Below are positions 1,638 through 58,668 of a DNA stretch of 64,000 nucleotides, piece after piece; the first letter of the stretch is position 1; the number at the start of each line of letters is the position of its first letter. The translations under genes and the position numbers were made by a program. The notes beneath the pieces were generated by a model. It had not been told where the DNA came from. It saw only the letters and a program-made list of their open reading frames with translations, and did no database searches. The stretch is taken from NCBI GenBank assembly GCA_026537415.1, contig JAFNMF010000027.1:1-64000 (forward strand). Reading direction: 5' to 3'. Source of the stretch: Acetobacteraceae bacterium B3987. Lineage in GTDB: Bacteria > Pseudomonadota > Alphaproteobacteria > Acetobacterales > Acetobacteraceae.

Positions 1638-3830
1638 TCAGCAGCTGCTTGGCTCATCCGTCAGATTGGGAGAGGTAACAGGTAAGTCCGCCAGAATGGC
1701 GATGTCACTGCCGCAGCTCAGGACAGCCGCCTTTTCGGCAGGTGTTAGTTGCGCCAGAGCTTCTTCTAATGTTGCGCTTTCCTGTAGCTTCAGAGAGCCC
1801 GTTAGAAGCGGTACGGAAATAGGCTCTCCAGCCTTACGAGGAGCAGGGAGCGTCCTCAGATGGGCATGCCTCAGTTCCGTGTTGCTACGGAGCGCATGAA
1901 AGGCCTCCACAATAACAGGATGTGGATGATTTCGTTCCTCAAGAGCACGCTGAATGATGGGCGGTGGAGCCGTTTCTTCCGGAATAAGAAGAAGGCCAGC
2001 CTTGCGGGCTGCCTGTCCGATACGACTGCTACTGGTCAGGCCAACCAGAGGAATGGCAAGCAGCAGCCCGATCAGCACCGGCAGCATCCAGAGAAACAGG
2101 GACAGGGAGACGGACCACGCTGCGGCACTCAGAATGAGGCCGAACAGGCTGTAGAACCAGTATTTTCGGACAGTATCGGCCCAGGGCAGACTGCCATCGT
2201 CACGGTTCTGGGCCTTCCAGCCAGAATCCCGCCCCAGCAGGATGGACAGAATAGCGGAGGTCTGGATCAGCATGGCGATTGGGGCGATGAGCGCACCGAT
2301 AAGTGTCTCCAGAATGATGGACCAGCCAAGCCGTACGACACCACCAGCCTGCTCACGTTCTTTCCGGTCAAAGCAGATGGCGATGAAGGCCAGAGCCTTG
2401 GGAGCCAGAAGCACAATCATGGTCTGGATGAAGACCAACCGGGCTAGAATGGGGTCCACATGCGGCCAGTGTGGATAGAGGCTGCGTTGGGTGCTGAAAT
2501 ATTCTGGATGATAGAAATGTGCCTGTAGGGCAATGAGAATGCCAAAGAGCAGGAACAGCAGCCAGAGCGGCGACATGATGTAAGAGCCAATGCCTACCAA
2601 CATGTGGGACCGGCTGACCCAGTGCATCCCCTTGGTGAAGAGGATACGGGCATGTTGGAGGTTTCCTTGACACCAGCGGCGGTCTCGTACGGCGATGTCC
2701 GTCAGGGAGGGCGGGCTTTCCTCATAGGAGCCGCTCAGACCCGGCACCATATGAATGGCCCAGCCACCACGGCGCATCAGGGCCGCTTCGATGAAGTCAT
2801 GGCTCAGAATATGCCCACCAAAGGGCGGTTTTCCGGGCAGATGAGGTAGACCGGCCTGCTCAGCAAAAGCCTGCGTGCGGATGATGGCATTATGACCCCA
2901 ATAATTGCCCTCAGAGCCGTGCCACCAGGCAATACCCTGCGCAATCAGAGGGCCATAAACACGCCCGGCAAATTGCTGCATCCGGGCAAAGAGCGTCTGC
3001 CCACCCACGATGACAGGCAGGCTTTGAATAAGGCCAACCTGTTCATGCCGTTCCATGGCGGCAGCTAAGCGGACAATCAGACCGCCATCCATTAGACTAT
3101 CCGCATCAAGGGTCAGCATGGCCGGATAGGCACCGCCAAAACGGGTTACCCAGTCGCCAATATTCCCCGCCTTGCGGTCCGTATTTTTAAAACGGCGGCG
3201 GTAGAACAGATGTCTGCGGGCATAATCCTGTTTATGTAGGTCAAGAATGGCCTGTTCTTCCTGCACCCAGATATCCGGGTCAGTCGTATCGGAGAGGATG
3301 AAGATGTCAAAATGCTCGCCCCGCCCAGTCTCCTGAAGGCTTTTGAGCATGGCCCGGAGATTGATCATCACCCGCTGCGGCGGCTCATTATAGGTTGGGA
3401 GCAGAATGGCGGTTTTGCTGGACAGTTCTGGCAGAGGGCCGGTGCGGCGGATGCCGAGACCTAGCCCGCCATGACGCAGCATGGCCCAGAATCCCCCCAT
3501 GGCCGAGGCGCAGGAAAGGGAAATCCAGAAGCTGAGGATGCTGAATAGCCCCAGCATGATGATACCCAGCGTGCTTGTTCCCAGCGAGTTGAAGACGGCA
3601 TTGATCTTCACCACGCTGTAGCCGGTCAGCAGAAAGGCCGTGCCGAAGACGGCTAGTCGCCGTAGCCAGAGCAGGGTTGGCGTTGTTGGAAGCCGCCAGA
3701 AGGACCGGCCATGACGATTGGGTGCCTTGTGCAGGTTCTGCACAGGCATGGCTAATGGGGCTTCAGGGGGAAGAAAGGCGGGTTGCTGTGGCGTGGTCAT
3801 CGTTCTCACGGAGTCCAGCGGTATAACCAT
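1638..3830 (-). CDS. mdoH: Glucans biosynthesis glucosyltransferase H
   Basis: 730-residue inner-membrane GT2 glucosyltransferase that polymerises UDP-glucose into the backbone of osmoregulated periplasmic glucans. The N-terminus carries two membrane segments (about residues 45-115), then a cytosolic GT2 domain starting at 'KTAILLPTYNEPP'. Metal-binding 'LTLDADSLMDGG', 'LSHDFIEAALMRRGGW' and 'RDRRWCQGNL' (the QxxRW-like region) are present. Several C-terminal membrane helices follow (about 400-600). It is shorter than E. coli OpgH (847) at the N-terminus, as in other alphaproteobacteria. The ATG at 3830 overlaps the end of mdoG by 25 nt. An in-frame ATG at 3800 (720 residues) is an equally plausible start with GTGAGA upstream. 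The overlap with mdoG indicates one transcript. Confidence 0.93.
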   Translation of the reverse strand: MVIPLDSVRTMTTPQQPAFLPPEAPLAMPVQNLHKAPNRHGRSFWRLPTTPTLLWLRRLAVFGTAFLLTGYSVVKINAVFNSLGTSTLGIIMLGLFSILSFWISLSCASAMGGFWAMLRHGGLGLGIRRTGPLPELSSKTAILLPTYNEPPQRVMINLRAMLKSLQETGRGEHFDIFILSDTTDPDIWVQEEQAILDLHKQDYARRHLFYRRRFKNTDRKAGNIGDWVTRFGGAYPAMLTLDADSLMDGGLIVRLAAAMERHEQVGLIQSLPVIVGGQTLFARMQQFAGRVYGPLIAQGIAWWHGSEGNYWGHNAIIRTQAFAEQAGLPHLPGKPPFGGHILSHDFIEAALMRRGGWAIHMVPGLSGSYEESPPSLTDIAVRDRRWCQGNLQHARILFTKGMHWVSRSHMLVGIGSYIMSPLWLLFLLFGILIALQAHFYHPEYFSTQRSLYPHWPHVDPILARLVFIQTMIVLLAPKALAFIAICFDRKEREQAGGVVRLGWSIILETLIGALIAPIAMLIQTSAILSILLGRDSGWKAQNRDDGSLPWADTVRKYWFYSLFGLILSAAAWSVSLSLFLWMLPVLIGLLLAIPLVGLTSSSRIGQAARKAGLLLIPEETAPPPIIQRALEERNHPHPVIVEAFHALRSNTELRHAHLRTLPAPRKAGEPISVPLLTGSLKLQESATLEEALAQLTPAEKAAVLSCGSDIAILADLPVTSPNLTDEPSSC

Positions 3831-46151: not shown

Positions 46152-47792
46152 TTGTTTAGGTCTTGCTGGCGGTATTTCAGGTTGCTGCTGGTCTCTTTGC
46201 CCCGGCGGCGGCATAAGGGAGTAAGCCCCGTCTGTCTTTATCAGGACAGAGAAGAAGGCGATGTGGATCAGGGTGCCCTGCTGACAGGGGGCGTGTTCCG
46301 TTTTGGCCAGAAGACCTATAGCCTGCCCCTGCGGGGTGTCTGGCAGACCAATAGCTGGCCGGAAGATGTTCGCCGCTGGTTCTATGGGTTTGACTGGCTA
46401 AGGGATTTACGGACATTCGGGACGAACGGTGCCCGGCTTTTGGCTCGGTCCATGGTGGCCTCATGGGCGGATCGTCCGCCAACCGACCCGGTCGCACGGG
46501 AAAGTGGCGTGATGGGGCGGCGGTTGGCAAATTGGCTGGCGCATTATGAATTCTGCCTCTCCACCGCTACGGAAGGAACGCAGCAGCTGGTGCTTGATGC
46601 TGCTGTGCGGGAGGCCCGCCGTCTTTCAGCTATGTTGCCTCTGCCGCCCATAGGCTGGGAGGGGCTGGCGGTCCTAAGGGGGCTGTTGGCTGTTTATATG
46701 GCCGTACCGTATTATGATGGTTTCTTCAAAAGATTTGAGCAGCAGCTCCCGCTAGAGCTGAAGCGTTTGATGGGCGAAGATGGCATTACAGCCGAGCGCA
46801 GCCCGGAAGCGCAATATCGGTGTGTGCAGGAGCTGACGGCCATTCAGGGCATGTTCAGCACCTTGCAATGGATGCCGCCGGACTGTGTGCCGGTGATGCT
46901 GGGACGTGCCTGCGCTGTGCTACGTGCCTTCTGTCATGGTGATGGTGGGCTGGCTCTGTTCAATGGCTCTCAAGAGCGTGGTGCAAAAGCTGTGCAGGAC
47001 CTGTTGGAGCAGGCTGAACGCTACAGGGTTGTTGCGTCTAGCCTTAACAGAGGCGGGTTTGTCCGTTTGACGGCAGAGCGGTCATTATTGCTGGTGGATG
47101 TTGCTGCGCCACCTTCGGCTGGTATGGACCGTTTAGCCCATGCTGGGACTTTGTCTTTTGAGTTTTCTCACCATCGGCAGCGGTTGTTCGTGAATTGTGG
47201 TGCGGCGGAAGGCGGGGCATGGCAACGGGCTTTGCGTGGTTCTGCTGCTCATACGATTTTGGTCGTAGATGGGGAGTCTTCGTCTGATTTTGGAGAGGAT
47301 GGCCATGTAACCCGCCGTCCCTCACAGGTGCGCTGCGAACAGAAGCGTCAGGGCCGCACGCAGGAGCTGCACCTGTCACATAATGGATATTATCCATCTT
47401 ATGGGGTCATTTGGTTCCGTTCTCTATTTCTGGCTCCCTCCGGTGAGGAATTAAGGGGACAGGAAGTGGTGGAAGGGGAACGGGATGTTCCGTTTACGTT
47501 GCGGTTCCATATTCACCCCGATGTTCGTGTGGAGAGGGAGGATGACGAGATCCTGCTCCATGCTCCGTCAGAGATATGGCGTTTCCATCAGACAGGCGGT
47601 GTGATTGCTTTGGAGGAAGACCTGTATATGGGCCGTGGTGCGCCAGAGCAGACCTCCCAGATTATTGTCCAGTCTCTTCCCGGCCGGACCGTACCTGCGC
47701 CAGTCGATGCGGCTGATGCCGGGAATAGGGCATCAAAGCCCCCAAAACGCCAGCAGAAGATTGAATGGGTGTTGGAGTATGTCCCCCTTTAG
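46152..47792 (+). CDS. Heparinase II/III-family protein
   Basis: 546 residues. The N-terminal half is an alpha-helical toroid ('SWPEDVRRWFYGFDWLRDLR', about residues 68-87), and the C-terminal half (about 300-540) is the beta-sandwich heparinase II/III domain with 'HAGTLSFEFSHHRQRLFVNC' and 'AAHTILVVDG'. Family members are polysaccharide lyases, but this alphaproteobacterial group next to rpe has no proven substrate. There is no signal peptide, so a periplasmic role would need another route. The only in-frame start near the rpe stop is TTG 46152, three bases away, which suggests translational coupling. Confidence 0.85.
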   Translation: MFRSCWRYFRLLLVSLPRRRHKGVSPVCLYQDREEGDVDQGALLTGGVFRFGQKTYSLPLRGVWQTNSWPEDVRRWFYGFDWLRDLRTFGTNGARLLARSMVASWADRPPTDPVARESGVMGRRLANWLAHYEFCLSTATEGTQQLVLDAAVREARRLSAMLPLPPIGWEGLAVLRGLLAVYMAVPYYDGFFKRFEQQLPLELKRLMGEDGITAERSPEAQYRCVQELTAIQGMFSTLQWMPPDCVPVMLGRACAVLRAFCHGDGGLALFNGSQERGAKAVQDLLEQAERYRVVASSLNRGGFVRLTAERSLLLVDVAAPPSAGMDRLAHAGTLSFEFSHHRQRLFVNCGAAEGGAWQRALRGSAAHTILVVDGESSSDFGEDGHVTRRPSQVRCEQKRQGRTQELHLSHNGYYPSYGVIWFRSLFLAPSGEELRGQEVVEGERDVPFTLRFHIHPDVRVEREDDEILLHAPSEIWRFHQTGGVIALEEDLYMGRGAPEQTSQIIVQSLPGRTVPAPVDAADAGNRASKPPKRQQKIEWVLEYVPL

Positions 47793-47798
47793 GGGGAC
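47781..47798. terminator. Hairpin covering both convergent stop codons
   Basis: GTCCCCCT (47781-47788) and AGGGGGAC (47791-47798) form a tight 8-bp stem that contains the heparinase-family stop (TAG, 47790-47792) and reaches the first base of the facing stop. No T-run is present. Confidence 0.4.
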
Positions 47799-49012
47799 TA
47801 GGGGGTTTCCTTGCGGATGATAGTTTGCTGGTGGGGGTTATACTCGTAAAGGTGGAGTGTGCCCTTCTGTATGAGGTGGGCTGCCTGACCAATCAGGTCA
47901 GTGGGCAGCAGGAACCATTCCTTCGGGTAGATCAGCTTCCCCATACGATCACGGACGTGAAGTATCGCCCGTGAGGGAGCGAAAAAGCGGTGAAGGCAGT
48001 CTTCCACCTTGCGGTGGGAGAGATTGACCAGCGTATAGGTGGCTACAATGTCCACGGGGGCCATAAGAAAGGTGGGGTCATTGCGGGCATCGGCTATTCG
48101 GCGGCGAACATCGCCGCTTGTGACGCCAATTTTATAAAGTTTTCCACGTAGGTTACGGATGGCCGGCACATCGGAGAGAGAACGGGCAACATAAATGGTG
48201 CCAGTGGCGTTGGTTACAGCCTCACTACCGGCGAGTGGCCCAAGGCCGGTACGAGAGATAAAGCGTGCCGTTTTATCTTCCGTCAGAGATTTGCGGAAGG
48301 ACGACATGAGTGGATCGCTCTCTGTCCCGTTAGAAAAGATGATACGCAGGCGATGTTCTCGGTCGCCGTGGCGGTAGGTCTTTTCGTATTTCTCGGCGAC
48401 ATAGGCAATCAGGCCGTTACGGATGAAGAAGTCACCTTCCGCAGGTTCAAGAATCTGCTTCTTCCTTACACGCTTTGCTGTACGGATTCCGTTAGCCACA
48501 TCTTGCTGTACGGCTTCGAACAGGGCCGCATAATCCTGAAAATTGGCGCAGGGCGTGATGACGGCCTGATGCTCGGGCACGGCTCGTTCTGCGGCGGGGC
48601 TGGAATGGCGGAGCTTGAAGATGCTGGTATCCATGTCCAGACTATCATCATTGAGAATGTCATCTAGCGATTGAGGGACATCCGTAAAGGCTTGTTCATC
48701 CCGCCAGTCCGGCAGGGGGGGAGATGATGGAGTGGGCTTGGCCAGCAGCCCCAGCCTGTCAGCCTCTTTTGTATCTGGGGATGGAGCCTGCGCCAGACGA
48801 TCCCAGGCGGCAGCAAGGCACATTTCATCGTGATCTTCAGCGCGAATATCCGGCAATCTGCCGTGGTCTTCAAAAAAGCGGCTCACTCGGTCCAGAAGGT
48901 CCAACGCCGTTTTGCCGGTGCTTCGCCCTTGCCGGGGGGATGACGTAGCACCCATCAGCAGGCCCAGTTCGTCATCCTCAGCGAAAATATCTTCCAGTGT
49001 GAGACGCTTCAT
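47798..49012 (-). CDS. GIY-YIG (T5orf172/MUG113-type) nuclease of a defence-like island
   Basis: 404 residues from ATG 49012, four bases after the helicase stop; a longer frame to 49096 overlaps the helicase and is unlikely. The N-terminus has 'FFEDHGRLPD' (GRLPD at 51-55), matching a stretch in the helicase C-terminus. A low-complexity Pro/Ser/Asp linker (about 75-150) follows. The C-terminal nuclease domain (about 270-375) has 'GTIYVARS' (Y274), 'KLYKIGVTSGDVRRR' (Y293, R304/R305), 'KVEDCLHRFF' with the metal-binding E337, and 'KEWFLL'. These are the catalytic positions of GIY-YIG enzymes of the T5orf172 group. It is last in the operon behind methyltransferase and helicase. I infer the DNA-cutting subunit. 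Confidence 0.85.
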   Translation of the reverse strand: MKRLTLEDIFAEDDELGLLMGATSSPRQGRSTGKTALDLLDRVSRFFEDHGRLPDIRAEDHDEMCLAAAWDRLAQAPSPDTKEADRLGLLAKPTPSSPPLPDWRDEQAFTDVPQSLDDILNDDSLDMDTSIFKLRHSSPAAERAVPEHQAVITPCANFQDYAALFEAVQQDVANGIRTAKRVRKKQILEPAEGDFFIRNGLIAYVAEKYEKTYRHGDREHRLRIIFSNGTESDPLMSSFRKSLTEDKTARFISRTGLGPLAGSEAVTNATGTIYVARSLSDVPAIRNLRGKLYKIGVTSGDVRRRIADARNDPTFLMAPVDIVATYTLVNLSHRKVEDCLHRFFAPSRAILHVRDRMGKLIYPKEWFLLPTDLIGQAAHLIQKGTLHLYEYNPHQQTIIRKETP

Positions 49013-49016
49013 CAGG

Positions 49017-51104
49017 TTAGCCTTGTTGCTGACGTGCCTTGGCTTTAGCCTTGGCAAGATGGAGCCGGGCAATAGCCAGACGCTGTTCCCGCTCATCGGG
49101 CGAATGGGGATCAGGCAGGCGGCCTTCCTGCGCTATGAAGGCTCGGAGCCGGGGCCAGAGGAGCATGGCCTCCTCATCCGTCATGGGGTAATTCTGGGCG
49201 GTGAAAGCGGTCTTGATCTGCGCTAGCAGAGGGGCATCCATATCACGGGAGATGATTTCAAACCGTTCCTGGAAGCAGTTGACGCTGTCGATCAACTCAA
49301 TATCGAGCTCTTTTACATTGATGAGTCGCCTGACGAGGCTGAGCAGGGTATTGGGTGCGCTTTCGGGAGAGGTGTCTCCGTCTTCCCGTGTGTGGGATGT
49401 GTTTTCTGCCCCGGGTGATGTGGGAGCCTCATGCGGTTGTAGCGGGGCGGTTTCTTCCTCCGGGAGGGTTTGCCGGGCCAGTGTGGAAAGATTGATGCGG
49501 GCGGAAAGCTGCTGCCGGACAGATTCCGTCTCATCCTTTGTCAGATCAGGGTAGCGTTGCTCGATGATGCCCGTCAGCACAGGCTGGTTGATGGCCTCTG
49601 GGATTATGCCAGGGTTGAGGGCACGGCTGGACATATGCTGGTGAGTGGCGGCGACGAGGTCGTTCATGTCTCTTTCGCAGATGTCACGGGCACGCTGGGT
49701 CGGTGGTTCATCAAGGTTGTGAATACCAATAGTGACATGCCCCTGCTCATCCGTGCTGACAGGGGCCCGGATGTCGCCATCCTCCCGCCGGTAGAACTTG
49801 AAGTTCGGTGCTAGAACTTGTTCCATCAGCAGGGAGCCGGAAATGGCTTTGAGCATGTCATTCACGGCATCCTGCACGGCCTGTGTTTCCACCCCCGGCT
49901 CGGCGACTAGATTGGTGAAGACAGCCCGTGTCTTGGCGGGGGCATCTCGTGTGGCTCGGCCGATGATCTGCACAATTTCCGTCAGGGAGGAGCGGTAGCC
50001 GATGGTCAGGGCATGTTCGCACCAGACCCAGTCGAATCCTTCCTTAGCCATGCCTAGAGCAATGATAATGTCCACTTTGGCCCGGTCGGCTTCGTCATCC
50101 CGTTTGCCATCCGGCCCATTGATGGTTTTGGCAAGGCTGGCTTTTACCCGTTCCCGGTCGGGGCCATCATCTACAAGGTTGGCCAGTTTGATGAGCCGGC
50201 CATCCGGGCGGCGGATGAGGTCGAACCCAGTTTCAGGGTCCCGTTTTTCAACCGTGCCGATGAGGTCGATGATCCTCCCGACCTCATTATATTTGTCGTC
50301 AAAGGCCTCGGATGACCCACGATGCGGAATATGGATGATGGTCTTGCGTGTGGGGTCCAGAACATCCTTCAGCCCGTTGATGTAGGTGCCTTTGTAGAAT
50401 TCGTAGGAAATGCCCAGCTTCTTGAGGAACTCATACCCCTCCAGCTGTTCGTAATAGCTGTAGGTGATGGGGGTGAAGCGGCTTTCATCCTCCGGACGGA
50501 GAACAGGGACGGAATCCCCCCGGAAGTAACTGCCCGTCATCGCCATGAGATGGCAGCGGTCCCGGCTCAGCAGCTCTCGTAGGATGGAGCCGAGGCGGTT
50601 ATTATCCCCCGCTGAAACATGATGGAACTCATCCACGGCGATGAAGCAGGAATCAAAACGCTCTACACCATCCTGTGCGATGACGGCATCATACCCAAAG
50701 CGGAAGGTGGCATGGGTGCAGACCAGCACCTGCGCCGCATCATCCTGCAAGAAGTCCTGAAAAGCCTGCACCTTGCGGGGGGAGCTTTCGTCACTGTCGA
50801 GACAGAGGTTCCAGCGGTCTTCCACCACCCAGTCACATTCAAAACCGACAAGGGCCGTACTGCGGAAGGAGCCTCCGATGGAGGTCTCCGGCACGCAGAT
50901 GATGGTCTTCTTCACATGCTGGTGGCGCATCTTGTCCAGCGCAACGAACATGAGGGCACGGCTCTTCCCGGCGGCGGGTGGGGCCTTGAGGAGAATATGC
51001 TGGGCCTGCCGGACCTTATAGACACGCTCCTGCATGGGGCGCATTCCCTGTGCGTTAGTGCCGGCCTTGCTGTGGCCATAGGTCATGGTGAATGTGGTCG
51101 CCAT
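49017..51104 (-). CDS. Superfamily 2 DEAD/DEAH-type helicase of a defence-like island
   Basis: 695 residues from ATG 51104 with AGGAGG-like sequence (AGGAGGG) upstream, four bases after the methyltransferase stop. Walker A 'LLKAPPAAGKSRAL' (K47), motif II 'IAVDEFHH' (158-162), motif III-like 'MAMTGSYFRGD' (187-197) and motif VI 'VQIIGRATRD' (378-387) show a complete SF2 core of the type I/III restriction and DISARM class. Beyond residue 430 is a large accessory region with a charged linker (about 580-620). The C-terminus has 'FIAQEGRLPDPHSPDE' (GRLPD at 661-665), shared with the GIY-YIG partner. I infer DNA translocation for target search or cutting. Confidence 0.88.
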   Translation of the reverse strand: MATTFTMTYGHSKAGTNAQGMRPMQERVYKVRQAQHILLKAPPAAGKSRALMFVALDKMRHQHVKKTIICVPETSIGGSFRSTALVGFECDWVVEDRWNLCLDSDESSPRKVQAFQDFLQDDAAQVLVCTHATFRFGYDAVIAQDGVERFDSCFIAVDEFHHVSAGDNNRLGSILRELLSRDRCHLMAMTGSYFRGDSVPVLRPEDESRFTPITYSYYEQLEGYEFLKKLGISYEFYKGTYINGLKDVLDPTRKTIIHIPHRGSSEAFDDKYNEVGRIIDLIGTVEKRDPETGFDLIRRPDGRLIKLANLVDDGPDRERVKASLAKTINGPDGKRDDEADRAKVDIIIALGMAKEGFDWVWCEHALTIGYRSSLTEIVQIIGRATRDAPAKTRAVFTNLVAEPGVETQAVQDAVNDMLKAISGSLLMEQVLAPNFKFYRREDGDIRAPVSTDEQGHVTIGIHNLDEPPTQRARDICERDMNDLVAATHQHMSSRALNPGIIPEAINQPVLTGIIEQRYPDLTKDETESVRQQLSARINLSTLARQTLPEEETAPLQPHEAPTSPGAENTSHTREDGDTSPESAPNTLLSLVRRLINVKELDIELIDSVNCFQERFEIISRDMDAPLLAQIKTAFTAQNYPMTDEEAMLLWPRLRAFIAQEGRLPDPHSPDEREQRLAIARLHLAKAKAKARQQQG

Positions 51105-51108
51105 CGGG

Positions 51109-53862
51109 TCAGCCCTCCTGTGTCTTTGTTGCGGAGCGTTTTTTGCGGACAGTCCGTTTCTTCTGGTCCTGCTCCACACGGGCAGCATAGCGGCGGAAGA
51201 GATGCTCAAGCCGCTGTGTATCGTTGGTAAAAGCCTGCCCCTTGTTATACAGCCCTTCCAGCAGGGCATCATTGGCCCGATGGGCCGCCCAGAGGTCGGC
51301 AGGCATTTTGTCCGGGTCGTACAGATCGGCCAGAGACTTGTCGAAATAGGACGCCCGCACCCGCATGATCGCCCGGCCGGACTGTTTCAGGGCTTCCTTG
51401 TCCGCCTCCGTGAGGGCAGGCACGGGGAAGGTGTGCCAGCCAAGCGTGTTGGAATATTGGAAGTCCGTTTTTAGGCGGCTACAGACCGTGCCCCCCCAAA
51501 CCCAATGCATACGGGAAACCAGCAGGGCAAAGCACCATTCCGGCGCATCATAGAGGACGAAGTTCCTGTCCCCGGAAATAACGTCCGAATTGACCCGGAT
51601 GGTCGGGAGATAGGGGCGGCGTTCCGAGCTGACACGGGGGATGAGGTAGGCGTGATTCTGTGGGGCATTATGCTCCCTGAACTGCCATGGGCGATCCAGT
51701 AGCTTCTGGTTTTTCTGGGCTTCTTTGATTTTGAAGGTGCGGGCCTCAAGGGTGGCTTCAATGCGGTTTTTAATTGGAACAATTGCTTGAGCTTTTTTAA
51801 TATCCGCATCATCAATCCAGAGGCAGTAACGGTCTAGATCATTGATGGCCTCTCTGGACCCCATGAAACGCCGGATGAAGGGTTCTGCCTGTGGGGCCTG
51901 TTGCAGGAGCAGGTCTCTTTCCTCTGGTGAGAGAAGGAGATGGCCATTATCGGCAGGCATGTTGCCGAAAAGCATTTCTGGCAGCCCAAAGAGGCTTTTA
52001 CTGGCTTTTTCTACAAAGACATACGGGGCATCCAGCAGATAGGCATTGATGTTCTGGGCCTGATGTTCCGTCTCCCCCATGAAGAGCCGTTTTGGTGCTG
52101 TGGTGGTTTTGGGATTCGGGCGGTTTCTCAGCCCGACAATGATGCAGATGACAGCGGCATTATGGCTGGCATTGTTGCGCCATTTGAAGGAGGTATGAGC
52201 AAAGCTGATCTCTAGCCCTTCTCCCAGCAGGTCGGGCCAGAGGGCATTGACGGCTTGTCCCTGACAGAGCGAATTGGTGGCGACCAGCGCAGCCTCTGCC
52301 TGTCGCCCCTGAATATAGCGGGCCGCCTTGAAGTACCATGCCGCCACATAATCCAGCCCCTTATAGTTTTTCACGGAGCCGGAAAAGACGGTAGTCATGT
52401 CGGCTTTCTGCTCCGCATTCTGGTATTGTTTGCCCAGAAAAGGCGGGTTGCCGATGATGTATACGAGGTCCTCCGCCTTTGGTGGCGGGCAGACCGTATC
52501 CCAGTCGAGCCGCAGCGCATTGCCGCAGACGATATGGGCAGCCTCCCGCAGTGGCAGGGGGGCAATGGCACGGCCAAAATGTTCGGCAAAAATGGCGTTG
52601 GCCTGATATTCCGCAATAAACAGGGCCAGCTTGGCCGTCTCAGCAGCGAAATCGGCACATTCTATGCCGTGAAAATTGGCAATCGGGATGACAGAAAACA
52701 GCTCCATCGTGTCATTGCCGTTCAGTGTGGCCAGCCGTTGCAGGATGGTCATTTCCAGCTCTCGCAGCTGGCGATAGGCAATGACAAGAAAGTTCCCGGA
52801 GCCACAGGCGGGGTCAAATATATGGATATGCCCGAGTTTCCGCAGGAGCTTTTGCAAAGCAGCGGGTTTGTCCCAGTTTTTTTGGATGTCGCTGCGCAGA
52901 CCATCGAGGAAGAGAGGGTCGATCACCTTCCGAATATTGGGAACAGACGTGTAATGCATCCCCAGTTCGGCCCGGATGCCCGTATCCGCAACGGACTGGA
53001 TCATGGAGCCGAAAATATCGGGGTTGATGTCCTTCCAGTTCAGTTCGCAGGCGTCTTTCAGATAGCGGAAGGCTGTGACATCAAAGGTCGGTATGTTGAT
53101 GTCACCCGCAAACAACCCGCCATTGACGTATTTTAAAGGGGCAGTCCAGTCTGGTAGATGGTTACGTTCGTCCTGCGGTAAGTTCATGGCCTCAAACCCG
53201 GCCTGAAGGACTGTATGCAGGGCCTCGCCTTTTTTCCCGCCATAATCCAGCACAAGGCGTGTGAACTGGCCTTTGGGGAAGATGCCGACATCCTCGGAGA
53301 ATAGGCAGAAGATCAGCCGCATCATGAACTGGTTCATGATGTGGGTGTGGCTGGGATTTTTCCACGCAGGGTTATGTCGAATGAGGGCATCGTACAGTCT
53401 GGCCAGCTTGCCAGTAGCCTTCACATCAACAGGGTTTTCCTCCACAGCCCGGTAACGCTCTTTACCAGCAGCAGGGAGGAAGAAGCCAAAATGTTCCGCC
53501 AGTTCATCAAACCGGCAATGCAGGCTTCCCCCACTGGCAGGGTGAAAAGCGGCTAGCATGGTGCCGTCTGTTGTGAGGAGAATGGCCGGTTTTGCCTGTT
53601 TGTTGCGGCTGGATGTTTTCAGCTGATCGAGAACGGAATCTACCGTAGTTTGTTCTGTCTCTCCTGCTGGGGCAAAATGAAAACGGCGACTCAACAGAAT
53701 CCCACCGGGGAGGTCGGAGCGGTTGGAAGCCCCTTTGCGTAGCCTGTCTATGGTTGCTTTTGCAGCATCCGTAGCAAGTGCGAAGTCGTAGGGAAATGAA
53801 CTGGCATTATAGGGCTGAGATGCGAGGTCCGAGAGAGCGTCATAGATTTCAGTCGGATTCAC
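51109..53862 (-). CDS. MmeI-like class I SAM-dependent DNA adenine methyltransferase
   Basis: 917 residues. Motif I 'FDPACGSGNFL' (349-359), 'GIECADFAAETAKLALFIAE' (399-418) and motif IV 'IGNPPFLG' (470-477, NPPF) mark an N6-adenine methyltransferase of the gamma order seen in MmeI/type IIL enzymes. The region about 540-870 fits a target-recognition domain ('WGGTVCSRLKTDFQYSNTLG') and helical spacer. Residues about 90-135 ('AKPAILLTTDG...') resemble the end of the MmeI N-terminal nuclease-like domain, but I see no D...ExK motif before it, so cleavage activity seems lost. It leads an operon with helicase and GIY-YIG genes. ATG 53862 has AGGGTTG upstream. Likely role: host DNA marking for a restriction-like system. 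Confidence 0.88.
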   Translation of the reverse strand: MNPTEIYDALSDLASQPYNASSFPYDFALATDAAKATIDRLRKGASNRSDLPGGILLSRRFHFAPAGETEQTTVDSVLDQLKTSSRNKQAKPAILLTTDGTMLAAFHPASGGSLHCRFDELAEHFGFFLPAAGKERYRAVEENPVDVKATGKLARLYDALIRHNPAWKNPSHTHIMNQFMMRLIFCLFSEDVGIFPKGQFTRLVLDYGGKKGEALHTVLQAGFEAMNLPQDERNHLPDWTAPLKYVNGGLFAGDINIPTFDVTAFRYLKDACELNWKDINPDIFGSMIQSVADTGIRAELGMHYTSVPNIRKVIDPLFLDGLRSDIQKNWDKPAALQKLLRKLGHIHIFDPACGSGNFLVIAYRQLRELEMTILQRLATLNGNDTMELFSVIPIANFHGIECADFAAETAKLALFIAEYQANAIFAEHFGRAIAPLPLREAAHIVCGNALRLDWDTVCPPPKAEDLVYIIGNPPFLGKQYQNAEQKADMTTVFSGSVKNYKGLDYVAAWYFKAARYIQGRQAEAALVATNSLCQGQAVNALWPDLLGEGLEISFAHTSFKWRNNASHNAAVICIIVGLRNRPNPKTTTAPKRLFMGETEHQAQNINAYLLDAPYVFVEKASKSLFGLPEMLFGNMPADNGHLLLSPEERDLLLQQAPQAEPFIRRFMGSREAINDLDRYCLWIDDADIKKAQAIVPIKNRIEATLEARTFKIKEAQKNQKLLDRPWQFREHNAPQNHAYLIPRVSSERRPYLPTIRVNSDVISGDRNFVLYDAPEWCFALLVSRMHWVWGGTVCSRLKTDFQYSNTLGWHTFPVPALTEADKEALKQSGRAIMRVRASYFDKSLADLYDPDKMPADLWAAHRANDALLEGLYNKGQAFTNDTQRLEHLFRRYAARVEQDQKKRTVRKKRSATKTQEG

Positions 53863-53988: not shown

Positions 53989-55239
53989 TTACCCCACCCG
54001 GACGAGGATGTGTTTCTTCTTGCCGGAGGAGAGTTTCAGCGCACCATCGGTCAGGTCGGCAGATGTGATGATCTGGTTTTCATCCTTGATGACCACATCA
54101 TTCAGCCGGGCACCACCACCACGGATGAGGCGGCGGGCTTCACCACCACTGGCAGCTAGTCCGGCTTCTGCAAAGAGCTTGAAGGCGGGCATCCCCTCGG
54201 CTGGCAGGCCGGAAGATAGCGTAACTTCCGGTAGAGCAGCTTGAACACTGCCCTGTTCAAACACCTTGCGGGCTGTCTCGGCGGCGTCTTCTGCGGCGGC
54301 ACGGCCGTGGCAGATGGCCGTAGCTTCGGTAGCCAGAATTTTTTTGGCCTCGTTGATTTCCGCACCTTCTAGCGCACCGAGACGCTCACATTCCTCCACG
54401 GGAAGGTCAGTGAACATCTTGAGGAAGCGGCCTACATCGGCATCCTCGGTATTGCGCCAGAACTGCCAGTAATCGAAGACAGGCCGCCGTTCTTTGCGAA
54501 CCCATACGGCCCCATTGGCGGACTTGCCCATTTTCGCCCCGGAAGAGGTAGTGACAAGCGGCGTTGTCAGCCCGAACAAGCGTGCCCCATCAGTGCGACG
54601 GGCAAGGTCGATGCCGGAGACGATGTTGCCCCACTGGTCGGAACCACCCATCTGGAGGATGGCACCGTGGCGGCGATACAGCTCCCGGAAGTCGAAGGCC
54701 TGAAGGATGGAGTAGTTGAACTCTAGAAAGGTCAGGCCCTGTTCACGGTCCAGACGCTGCTTCACGCTCTCGAAAGATAGCATCCGGCTGACAGAGAACT
54801 GCACTCCGACATCCTGAAGCAGGTTGATGTAAGAGAGCTTGTCCAGCCAGTCCGCATTATTGACGAGGCGGCATTTGCCATTATCAAAGTTCAGGAACTG
54901 TCCCAGCGAGGCCCGTAGACCGGCGAGATTGTGGGTGATGGTCTCATCTGTCATTAGGGACCGGGCTTCATCACGGAAGGACGGATCACCGATCTTTGCC
55001 GTCCCCCCACCGATCAGGGCGATGGGATTATGACCGTGTTTCTGGAGTAGGCGCAGCATCATGATTGACATGGCATTACCCACATGCAGGGAGTCCGCCG
55101 TGGGGTCGAAACCAATATAGGCCGTGATGGGGCCTGCTAGCATCAGTTCGTCCAGCGCTTCGAAATCCGTACATTGGAAGATCATGCCACGGGCTTTGGC
55201 TTCCCGCAGGAATGGGCTTTTAAGTGATGTATCGGTCAT
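53989..55239 (-). CDS. tyrS: Tyrosine--tRNA ligase
   Basis: 416 residues. Class Ic synthetase that charges tRNA-Tyr. '[20 protein letters not shown]' carries the HIGH-like motif HVGN. '[18 protein letters not shown]' binds tyrosine. '[12 protein letters not shown]' is the KMSKS loop. An S4 RNA-binding domain occupies the C-terminus (about residues 345-410, '[20 protein letters not shown]'). ATG 55239 is preceded by GAAGGCC. It is upstream of the defence-like island on the same strand but separated from it by 126 nt, and follows the hydrolase gene by 47 nt. Confidence 0.97.
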
Positions 55240-56303: not shown

Positions 56304-57509
56304 ATGGTTCAGAAGACCATCTTGCAGCAGAGTCCTGTCTATCTTGATGCCAATGCAACCGAGCCTCTGCGCCCTGCGGCTCGGGAGGCTGTATTGGCCG
56401 GATTGGAGCAGACAGGGAATCCGGCTTCTGTTCATGCGGCGGGGCGAAAGGCCCGTATCATGCTGGAAGAAGCCCGCAGGCAGATGGCTGCTGCTTTCGG
56501 CAGGGAGGCCGATTGCTGCATTTTTACGTCAGGGGGAACAGAGGCGGATACGCTTGCCTTGCATGGCTTTGGACGCATGGAAGGCCGTACCATTTTTATT
56601 GGTGCTACTGAGCATGATGCCATTCGTAAAGCTGCTCCTGATGCGGCCCTTATCCCAGTGGATGGGCAAGGTGTGATTGACTGCACGCTATTGGAAGAGA
56701 TGTTGGTGACCCACATCGCCGGGTCGGGGGATAAGCCGGGGCCACTGGTCTGCGTCATGGCAGCGAATAACGAGACAGGGGTTTATGCTCCCTTGCGGGA
56801 CGTGGCTGCTCTTTGTCGCCGTTATGGTGCGTTCCTTCACGTCGATGCCGTACAGGCCGCAGGGAGAATGCGGGAACAGGATGAGTTCTCACAGGCATTG
56901 AAGGATGGTTCGCTGGCAAGGGCCAGTCTAGTCTTGTCTGCCCATAAGATGGGTGGTCCCAAGGGAGCAGGGGCATTGCTTCTGCCAGAAGATAGACCCT
57001 TGTCTCCTCTGTTGCCCGGTGGTGGGCAGGAGCGGGGGCGGCGGGGTGGTACACCCGCTCTTGCTCTCCATAGAGGCATGGCCGTCGCTTTTGAGGAAAG
57101 CCAGAAACAGGATTGGGCTATGTTGGAAGCCCTTCGGGACGAACTGGAGTCCGTCATGGTGCAGGCCGGGGCCATCATTATGGGGCATGGTGTGGCCCGT
57201 TTGCCTAATACCGTCAGTGCCGTTTTGCCCGGTGTGACGGCCCAGATGCAGCTTATGGCGTTGGATATTGAGGGTTATTGCGTGTCCGCTGGTTCAGCCT
57301 GTTCATCTGGTAAAGTGACTCGGTCTCATGTGCTGGAGGCCATGGGGCAGGGCGAGGGGGCTGGGCAGGCTATCCGTGTTTCCTTGCCGTGGAATGTCAG
57401 GGCTACTGATGTCAGGGCGTTTGGAGAGGCCTATGCACGCATGGCGCAGCGTTTTGCCGAACGTGGCCTGTTAAGGAGGCTCGCCTCATCAGGAGGAACG
57501 CATGGTTGA
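56304..57509 (+). CDS. Cysteine desulfurase, first of a tandem pair
   Basis: 401 residues, class V PLP aminotransferase fold. It takes sulfur from cysteine as a persulfide. 'VYLDANATEPLRPAA' is the N-terminal signature, 'LSAHKMGGPKGAGAL' carries the PLP lysine K215, and 'CVSAGSACSSGKV' the active-site loop with C333. It differs from the following gene in several blocks and is probably an ancient duplicate rather than a recent copy. Its end overlaps the second desulfurase gene by 8 nt. The upstream region has no clear strong ribosome site, but ATG 56304 is the first usable start. Confidence 0.9.
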   Translation: MVQKTILQQSPVYLDANATEPLRPAAREAVLAGLEQTGNPASVHAAGRKARIMLEEARRQMAAAFGREADCCIFTSGGTEADTLALHGFGRMEGRTIFIGATEHDAIRKAAPDAALIPVDGQGVIDCTLLEEMLVTHIAGSGDKPGPLVCVMAANNETGVYAPLRDVAALCRRYGAFLHVDAVQAAGRMREQDEFSQALKDGSLARASLVLSAHKMGGPKGAGALLLPEDRPLSPLLPGGGQERGRRGGTPALALHRGMAVAFEESQKQDWAMLEALRDELESVMVQAGAIIMGHGVARLPNTVSAVLPGVTAQMQLMALDIEGYCVSAGSACSSGKVTRSHVLEAMGQGEGAGQAIRVSLPWNVRATDVRAFGEAYARMAQRFAERGLLRRLASSGGTHG

Positions 57510-58668
57510 TACTGTGGGAAATCCAGCAGGTGATGTAATCTATCTGGATTATCTTGCTACGACGCCATGCGACCCTGCCGTCGTGGAGGCGATGTTGCCG
57601 TGGTTCACGCACTATCCTGCCAATGCGGGGAGTCTGCACTTACCGGGGCGGAAGGCGGAAGAAGCGGTGGAGCAGGCTCGGGCGGAGCTTGCCGATGCTC
57701 TGGGAATTAGCCCGCAGGAATTGATCTGGACTTCCGGGGCGACGGAATCCAACAATCTGGCCATCAAGGGAGTAGCCCGTTTCCTGAAGGAGCAGGGTGA
57801 CAGACGGCGACGCATCATTACTGTGGCTACGGAACATAAATGCGTGCTGGAGAGTGTTCTCTCTCTGGCGGATGAGGGGTTTGAGCCTGTCATTCTGCCA
57901 GTGGAGTCGGATGGCCGCTTGTCGCTGGATTGTTTGGAAGATGCTCTGAAGACTCCTACTTTATTGGTTAGCATCATGGCAGCGAATAATGAGACGGGCG
58001 TTGTGCAGGACCTTGCCCATCTCATGCCATTGGTAAAGCAGGCCGGTGCCTTGTTGCATGTGGATATGGCCCAGATGTTCGGCAAGCTGCCTTGCACGCT
58101 AGAGGGTGTCGATCTCGCTTCAGTCTCGGCACATAAGATATACGGCCCTAAGGGAGTCGGTGCCCTATATGTCCGGCGGCGACCCCGTGTGCGGCTTATG
58201 CCTCTGTTTTCGGGAGGTGGGCAGGAGCGTGGCGTGCGTTCTGGCACGTTGCCTGTGCCGCTGATTGTCGGCATGGGGATGGCTGCTCGCCTCGCTGTAG
58301 AGCAGCAGCCTACCGAAGCAACCCGCCTTGCGGGCTTGCGGGATAGGCTGTGGCAGGGTATGCGGCAGCTGTTCCCGGTGGTGCGTCTTAATGGTGCATC
58401 GGCCCTGCGGCTACCGGGCGTCTTGAATATATGCCTGCCCACCGGGCCAGAGGCACGGCAGGTTCTGGCCACCGTGCCGGGGGTTGCTTTTTCATCAGGT
58501 TCGGCCTGTTCGGCAGCATCCGGGGCTTCGTCCTACGTTCTGAAAGCGATGGGGCTGACGGATGCAGAGGCACGCAGGAGCTTGCGCCTGTCGGTGGGAC
58601 GTTTTACCTCGGCAGGTGATGTGGAGTGCGCAGTGGCCCGTTTTGGGCAGGGCTTTGCCGGGAGGTAA
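57502..58668 (+). CDS. Cysteine desulfurase, second of a tandem pair (IscS-like)
   Basis: 388 residues. 'IYLDYLATTPCDPAVVEAML' is the IscS-type N-terminus, 'SVSAHKIYGPKGVGAL' has the PLP lysine K212, and 'FSSGSACSAASGASSYVL' the catalytic C336. It is closer to IscS than the preceding gene. With ferredoxin and mnmA downstream it likely supplies sulfur for tRNA 2-thiouridylation and perhaps Fe-S assembly. ATG 57502 has AGGAGGA upstream. IscU, HscA and HscB genes are not nearby. Confidence 0.92.
   Translation: MVDTVGNPAGDVIYLDYLATTPCDPAVVEAMLPWFTHYPANAGSLHLPGRKAEEAVEQARAELADALGISPQELIWTSGATESNNLAIKGVARFLKEQGDRRRRIITVATEHKCVLESVLSLADEGFEPVILPVESDGRLSLDCLEDALKTPTLLVSIMAANNETGVVQDLAHLMPLVKQAGALLHVDMAQMFGKLPCTLEGVDLASVSAHKIYGPKGVGALYVRRRPRVRLMPLFSGGGQERGVRSGTLPVPLIVGMGMAARLAVEQQPTEATRLAGLRDRLWQGMRQLFPVVRLNGASALRLPGVLNICLPTGPEARQVLATVPGVAFSSGSACSAASGASSYVLKAMGLTDAEARRSLRLSVGRFTSAGDVECAVARFGQGFAGR

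Follow-up and report, generated by a model that had tools for sequence, protein, structure and literature searches.

A probable DnmA-YeeB-YeeC-type restriction-modification system with an exchangeable specificity cassette in a bee-associated Bombella bacterium

RESULTS

The window analyzed here is a stretch of 64,000 nucleotides (positions 1 to 64,000 of contig JAFNMF010000027.1, assembly GCA_026537415.1) from Acetobacteraceae bacterium B3987, a bee-associated Bombella with a genome of 2.04 Mb. It carries three minus-strand genes, which encode an MmeI-like N6-adenine DNA methyltransferase (MTase) of the DnmA/YeeA type (positions 51109 to 53862; 917 amino acids), an SF2 helicase or translocase in the YeeB position (49017 to 51104; 695 amino acids), and a T5orf172/MUG113 GIY-YIG nuclease in the YeeC position (47798 to 49012; 404 amino acids). 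We propose that the MTase is the modification and specificity subunit. The genes are separated by gaps of 4 bp (51105 to 51108 between MTase and helicase and 49013 to 49016 between helicase and nuclease). The starts of the helicase gene (51104) and the nuclease gene (49012) were chosen to fit the conserved proteins, and the listed open reading frames begin further upstream. Outside the system, the trio is flanked by tyrS (53989 to 55239, minus strand; Pfam TyrRS) and by a heparinase II/III-like gene (46152 to 47792, plus strand; identified by Pfam) that is convergent with tyrS. A preliminary description of this DNA had given the same layout, protein identities, and flanking genes, and all of these are upheld by the coordinates, the Pfam matches, and the motif conservation reported below. 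The whole genome contains a single helicase match and a single MmeI_Mtase match. Among named species, the closest to this genome are Bombella intestini, B. favorum, B. dulcis, and B. apis, whose helicases are 87 to 90% identical. The GC content inside the trio region is 0.54 to 0.58, as in the surroundings, which rules out an island that looks foreign by base composition.

Does the trio recur as a unit? We examined the best 80 of 122 confirmed helicase loci, a sample that leans towards close relatives. The MTase gene is present in 77 of these loci, the nuclease gene in 78, and both in 76, on one strand and in a constant order, which excludes a chance grouping; repeated co-occurrence had been put forward as a check in the preliminary description. 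The four loci without the full trio either lie near contig ends (L054 and L077) or have partial helicases (L060 and L061). L061 and L049, a locus with a frame-broken helicase, were left out of the alignments. L035, with an MTase fragment, was left out of the pair comparison, the correlations, and the MTase row counts; L054, which has no nuclease gene and ends with the contig, was left out wherever all three genes were needed, and L045 was additionally left out of the correlations.

Between the helicase and nuclease genes there is either an overlap or a distance of no more than 15 bp; the exceptions are L080 (134 bp) and L049 with its broken frame. The gap between the MTase and helicase genes exceeds 200 bp in 22 of 77 loci. 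Extra genes seem to enter preferentially at the MTase-helicase junction, whereas the helicase-nuclease junction is hardly ever split. Ten loci (L014, L018, L024, L025, L032, L041, L045, L054, L055, and L065) have a gene for a protein of ~275 amino acids between the MTase and the helicase. Its L014 copy, the sole copy scanned, resembles Abi_2 (E-value of 7.7e-5, below the cutoff) and HEPN, and in 5 of the 10 loci it is preceded by a member of a second family of ~259 amino acids that had no Pfam match over the cutoff. Other cargo of this gap consists of defense or toxin-antitoxin genes (L071, 4893 to 7993; L082, 4319 to 7970; L078; L075; and L115), with DarT plus a macro domain and Fic, GmrSD_N plus PDDEXK_4, RhuM, KilA-N, and RelE/ParE as the types found in these five loci.

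The MTase contains five MmeI Pfam domains above the cutoff: Mtase (1.9e-103), target recognition domain (TRD; 2.1e-76), N (1.3e-22), spacer (2.3e-21), and C (5.6e-18). It matches the MmeI structure 5hr4 with an E-value of 1e-150 in phmmer, and its top PADLOC match is Type IIG REase_MTase (4.4e-275). The motifs DPACGSG and GNPP are present in all 76 rows of the alignment, and a phenylalanine precedes DPACGSG in 75 of them. The PD-(D/E)XK nuclease motif of MmeI consists of D70, E80, and K82 (PMC4833311). According to a motif scan of the alignment, this motif is absent from the MmeI_N-type N-terminal domain of the window MTase (residues 1 to 162; 53377 to 53862, minus strand), and the pattern D-x6-14-[DE]-x-K was found at common columns in at most 4 of the 76 rows, so that the protein does not belong to Type IIL by way of a nuclease of its own. 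The phmmer alignment begins at MmeI residue 144, past most of the nuclease domain. A lone [DE]-x-K pair is present in 63 of the 76 rows; we interpret this pair as marking where the spacer begins (D146 to K148 in the window protein, opposite NIK in MmeI) and not as a nuclease motif.

The helicase matches the Pfam families DEAD (1.2e-5) and ResIII (6e-4), both slightly below the cutoff. Among its relatives, GKS is conserved in 78 of 79 rows (with one gap) and DEFH, TGS, and QIxGRxxR in all 79. The nuclease matches MUG113 (6.8e-10) and T5orf172 (5.9e-7), both above the cutoff. Its GIY-YIG catalytic domain, placed by Pfam at residues 271 to 376 (47885 to 48202, minus strand), has the residues G271, Y274, K294, G296, R305, and E337, each of which is conserved in all 78 rows. 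In 10 pairwise Bombella comparisons, w was 0.11 to 0.18 for the helicase and 0.12 to 0.29 for the nuclease; hence, both proteins are under purifying selection and maintained.

The two proteins also share a module of ~52 residues with the pattern F-x7-P-x8-E, located at the C-terminus of the helicase (residues 640 to 691; 49032 to 49187, minus strand) and at the N-terminus of the nuclease (residues 30 to 81; 48770 to 48925, minus strand). Comparison of the two ends by hhalign gave a P value of 1.7e-5 and a probability of 78.6 over 52 columns with 35% identity; in four control comparisons, P was 0.31 to 0.74. The key residues are conserved in 78 of 79 rows in the helicase (F656, P664, and E673; one gap) and in 78 of 78 rows in the nuclease (F46, P54, and E63), and both stretches are predicted to form two helices. 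A Pfam scan of the two stretches returned no match over the cutoff. The module may be a docking or dimerizing element.

Which of the three proteins determines the target site? From 75 full systems (74 loci and the window) we formed disjoint pairs, best first, with a helicase identity of at least 95%, which gave 19 pairs. The helicase identity within these pairs is high by selection and is not evidence; the nuclease, the ends of the MTase, and the correlations are free of that choice. The TRD was at most 85% identical in 15 of the 19 pairs and at least 95% identical in 4. For the 15 pairs, the median identities were 97.4% (helicase), 92.9% (nuclease), and, within the MTase, 95.0% (N-terminal domain), 95.7% (spacer), 74.8% (catalytic domain), 55.9% (TRD), and 95.1% (C-terminal domain). 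The mean sliding identity was 38 to 80% for MTase segments starting at residues 451 to 781 and at least 85% elsewhere in the three proteins; it never fell below 85% in the helicase or below 86% in the nuclease. The exchangeable specificity cassette thus delimited spans MTase residues ~451 to 800 (51463 to 52512, minus strand) and comprises the last part of the MTase domain, which includes NPPF, and most of the TRD. The extreme pair is Tropicimonas versus Rhodovulum, with identities of 99.3% (helicase), 97.3% (nuclease), and 36% (TRD). For B. intestini versus B. favorum, the corresponding values are 99.0%, 97.5%, and 80%. At the DNA level, 300-base segments of the latter two loci (L006 and L007) are ~97 to 100% identical in the trio outside the cassette, 89 to 99.7% in the flanks, and ~82% in the TRD part.

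The correlations gave the same picture. Among 74 systems, helicase identity correlated at 0.974 with MTase residues 1 to 300 and at 0.529 with the cassette; for the 333 pairs with a helicase identity of at least 80%, the values were 0.884 for the N-terminal part of the MTase and 0.146 for the cassette. The helicase and the nuclease evolve with the ends of the MTase and largely independently of the recognition cassette. A helicase or nuclease that read the site would have to change along with the cassette, and we saw no such change; hence, the MTase is most likely the only seat of specificity. TRD differences among MmeI-family enzymes are already known. What is new here is that the helicase and the nuclease do not follow the TRD change. 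In the accessible parts of the literature found by searches aimed at characterized systems, and not at these particular points, neither the shared module nor an exchange of the cassette under unchanged partners was mentioned.

The contact residues of the window MTase were mapped by alignment with MmeI to the contact positions described in the accessible part of PMC4833311. They are F/M (642/645), R/D (751/773), R/Q (774/810), and K/D (806/808). By analogy with MmeI, the K-D pair would specify G at position 6, which is the firmest of these assignments, and next the R-D pair would specify G at position 3. More tentatively, M645 may favor A at position 2, as in engineered MmeI, which has Y and not F at 642, and R/Q at 774/810 may stand for C at position 4, by analogy with K774/S810 only. 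At position 1, the residues (R at 737, E at 738, and a gap near 723) leave the base ambiguous. The predicted motif of the window system is (C/G)AGC(m6A)G. No two of the five Bombella copies (those of the window, B. intestini, B. favorum, B. dulcis, and B. apis) agree in their set of contact residues. The B. apis copy has an E-R pair for position 6, which would predict C there.

The trio is patchily distributed and appears to be mobile. A helicase match was found in 23 of 249 sampled genomes of the family. Helicase matches occur in 262 plasmid records, 154 of which cover at least 80%; only 2 phage records match, each over just 18% of the helicase, and a phage origin is unsupported. The trio is also annotated on three plasmids, from Ligilactobacillus salivarius, E. 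coli, and Synechococcus; for the trio on a Bacillota plasmid, the helicase identity is 43.8%. Aliihoeflea and Paracoccus share a 99.9% identical helicase and are 100% identical in the other parts, and the helicases of a Sneathiella metagenome bin and of Thalassospira are 100.0% identical. These near-identical copies, in genera of different orders, point to recent transfer.

Within Bombella, 5 of 11 genomes carry the helicase and the MTase, in all five cases between tyrS and the heparinase gene. In 5 of the 6 noncarriers the site is empty, with a tyrS-heparinase spacing of 96, 74, 11, 13, and 13 bp; the sixth has them on separate contigs. Bombella therefore shows the patchy presence with empty sites that is a feature of horizontally moving defense cassettes, and these empty sites, together with the helicase relatives on plasmids, bear out the inserted cassette suspected in the preliminary description. 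In a tree of the tyrS-heparinase DNA, one clade (0.901) holds noncarriers G006 to G010. The remaining noncarrier, G005, falls with the five carriers, as the partner of G002 (0.643). In the protein tree, G002 and G005 are again paired (0.999), and carrier G001 stands among the noncarriers with low support (0.703 to 0.707). Judged by the DNA tree, the simplest history of the trio is likely one gain and one loss; the placement of G001 in the protein tree would need one further event. The tyrS gene of G005 (locus L100) has an in-frame insertion of ~300 codons (2689 to 3603) close to the 3' end, within or downstream of the part for the S4 domain, and encodes 718 instead of 416 amino acids. The insertion is present in 1 of the 11 genomes and had no Pfam match over the cutoff. 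A different insert of ~1 kb at the trio site of G005 was considered and dropped, as the added length is this insertion within tyrS.

Elsewhere in the window, two overlapping tandem genes (56304 to 57509 and 57502 to 58668) encode class-V aminotransferases. Each matches PF00266, and by reading both would be cysteine desulfurases.

DISCUSSION

The trio is likely to be a restriction-modification system of the DnmA-YeeB-YeeC kind that depends on ATP and consists of three subunits. The restriction-type roles proposed in the preliminary description gain from the recurrence of the trio as a unit, the conserved active sites, and the purifying selection. They are refined in that specificity most likely lies only in the MTase, and they are weakened by the report, in the accessible parts of the literature, that the Bacillus subtilis homologues are inactive against plasmid and phage.

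How might such a system work? Judging from its family, the MTase would recognize an asymmetric site of ~6 bp and mark one adenine on one strand. The cassette exchange suggests that it is the only specificity subunit, its TRD directing the helicase and the nuclease to unmodified sites. The exchange of the cassette with constant partners thus speaks for a Type I-like design, with specificity supplied by the MTase alone. A Type I-like idea for such trios has been credited to Morgan et al. 2009 (PMC7261158). The motifs suggest that the helicase translocates on the DNA and that the GIY-YIG protein is the cutter. The helicase-nuclease pair would probably dock on the conserved N-terminal, spacer, and C-terminal domains of the MTase, and the F-x7-P-x8-E module is the likely contact between helicase and nuclease. 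Marking of one strand leaves fully unmodified sites on one daughter molecule, and therefore cutting should need more than one unmodified site. Type ISP enzymes cleave at head-to-head sites (PMC4872093); by analogy with Type ISP and Type III, cutting by the trio might need two opposed unmodified sites or the meeting of motors, which is the least certain step of the proposed mechanism.

We more tentatively suggest an undescribed "split Type ISP" arrangement, for which we see somewhat less than an even chance. Here the nuclease-dead MmeI-type MTase would be a plug-in specificity subunit, exchanged by recombination, that serves a constant helicase-GIY-YIG pair joined by the shared module.

Several points weigh against a three-subunit restriction system. 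The complex of the three proteins is hypothetical. The hhalign probability of the shared module is only 78.6, and the module could bind DNA instead of protein. The structure models (from alignments of 74 sequences, A1, and 56 sequences, A2) were of limited help: that of the helicase is poor (pLDDT of 67.5), too poor for a structure search, and Foldseek with the nuclease model returned no match with an E-value of 0.001 or less but only weak SH3-like matches. The 80 loci include two with partial helicases that lack one or both partners (L060 and L061), the frame-broken helicase of L049, and the MTase fragment of L035. In addition, the accessible parts of the B. subtilis work (PMC9973331, PMC7261158) report that deletion of dnmA left transformation unchanged, that deletions in the cluster left the sensitivity to three phages unchanged, and that the DnmA motif is not underrepresented in phage genomes; the authors use the term "relic."

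Could the MTase then be an orphan, so that only the m6A mark matters, for gene regulation, and the helicase and the nuclease are leftovers of a dead restriction system? This is the conclusion published for B. subtilis (PMC9973331, PMC7261158, as far as accessible), but for the trio studied here we regard it as unlikely. The purifying selection on the helicase and the nuclease in Bombella and their conserved active sites speak against it, the trio is kept together in nearly all loci examined, and its genes seem to move jointly, as in Aliihoeflea and Paracoccus.

We think it improbable that the trio works like CglI or NgoAVII, in which case a helicase-nuclease complex would recognize its own site and the methyltransferase would act separately. 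CglI likewise has a separate nuclease in addition to a methyltransferase and a DEAD helicase, and its R2H2 complex brings along DNA-binding domains of its own (PMC5737866, PMC4267653). However, a self-targeting pair would have to change when the TRD is exchanged, and in the 15 pairs no region of the helicase or the nuclease varies along with the TRD, which, as a sequence comparison, counts against CglI-like site recognition. The loss of the MTase's own nuclease motif argues in the same direction.

There is equally little to recommend a BREX- or DISARM-like block of phage replication without cutting, in which the GIY-YIG protein would be structural or serve later nucleic acid processing: the MTase resembles the PADLOC models DrmMI (5.5e-34) and PglX (1.5e-7), and some relatives have additional defense genes between MTase and helicase, but the resemblance is weaker than that to Type IIG, the GIY-YIG catalytic residues are conserved, and the genome has no match to PglZ, MZB, or HsdS, in line with the lack of PglZ, DUF1998, and HsdS in the trio stated in the preliminary description.

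Returning to the DnmA-YeeB-YeeC-type restriction-modification system, we note that the function of this arrangement has so far not been settled, as it is reported to be inactive in B. subtilis and protective in a Vibrio (PMC9973331, accessible part). The natural cassette exchanges make it directly testable whether the MTase aims the helicase and the nuclease, and the natural pairs are ready-made swaps for this purpose. If it does, a single gene could change the specificity while the cutter stays constant.

Among the known systems, BREX is rejected by the 0 matches to PglZ in the genome (BrxC was not searched for) and DISARM by the 0 matches to MZB (PF09369), which we take to correspond to DrmB/DUF1998 (the PLD gene was not searched for). 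Type I (HsdRMS) is rejected by the 0 matches to Methylase_S (HsdS) in the genome. The proposed likeness to Type I is that a modification and specificity part gives the target to a motor-nuclease part; the window system differs by this lack of an HsdS match, by its single TRD, and by having motor and nuclease on separate chains. With CglI and NgoAVII the trio shares a methyltransferase, an SF2 helicase, and a nuclease on separate genes (PMC5737866, PMC4267653), but the CglI helicase-nuclease complex reads the site itself, and we saw no variable domain fit for that in the window pair. The Type ISP enzymes LlaGI and LlaBIII have an MTase-TRD part organized like Type IIL, a helicase motor, and a nuclease (PMC4872093). 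They are single polypeptides with an Mrr-type nuclease, whereas the window trio consists of three genes with a GIY-YIG nuclease; with its parts on three genes it is not a member of Type ISP. The MTase resembles Type IIL MmeI in all five domains (E-value of 1e-150) and in the TRD contact positions, but it lacks PD-(D/E)XK, and the partner genes supply the motor and the nuclease (PMC4833311).

The closest likeness is to the dnmA(yeeA)-yeeB-yeeC cluster of B. subtilis, whose make-up, as described in the accessible parts of PMC9973331 and PMC7261158, is that of the window trio. Hence, the trio is not new: the preliminary description could not say whether such a system had been characterized, and one has been described. 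The PF20473 profile matches in B. subtilis. According to these reports, B. subtilis YeeB and YeeC lack C-terminal-domain stretches found in the Vibrio homologues, and the cluster is inactive; the lengths of the Bombella helicase and nuclease are typical of their relatives. In Vibrio crassostreae, deletion of the dnmA and yeeB homologues caused greater sensitivity to some phages (as cited in PMC9973331). For the helicase and the nuclease, the likeness is taken from the published descriptions of B. subtilis YeeB and YeeC. The Bombella and B. subtilis clusters agree in their protein types and gene order, with the helicase first and the T5orf172/GIY-YIG protein second downstream of the MTase, and in both the MTase is MmeI-like and free of the nuclease motif.

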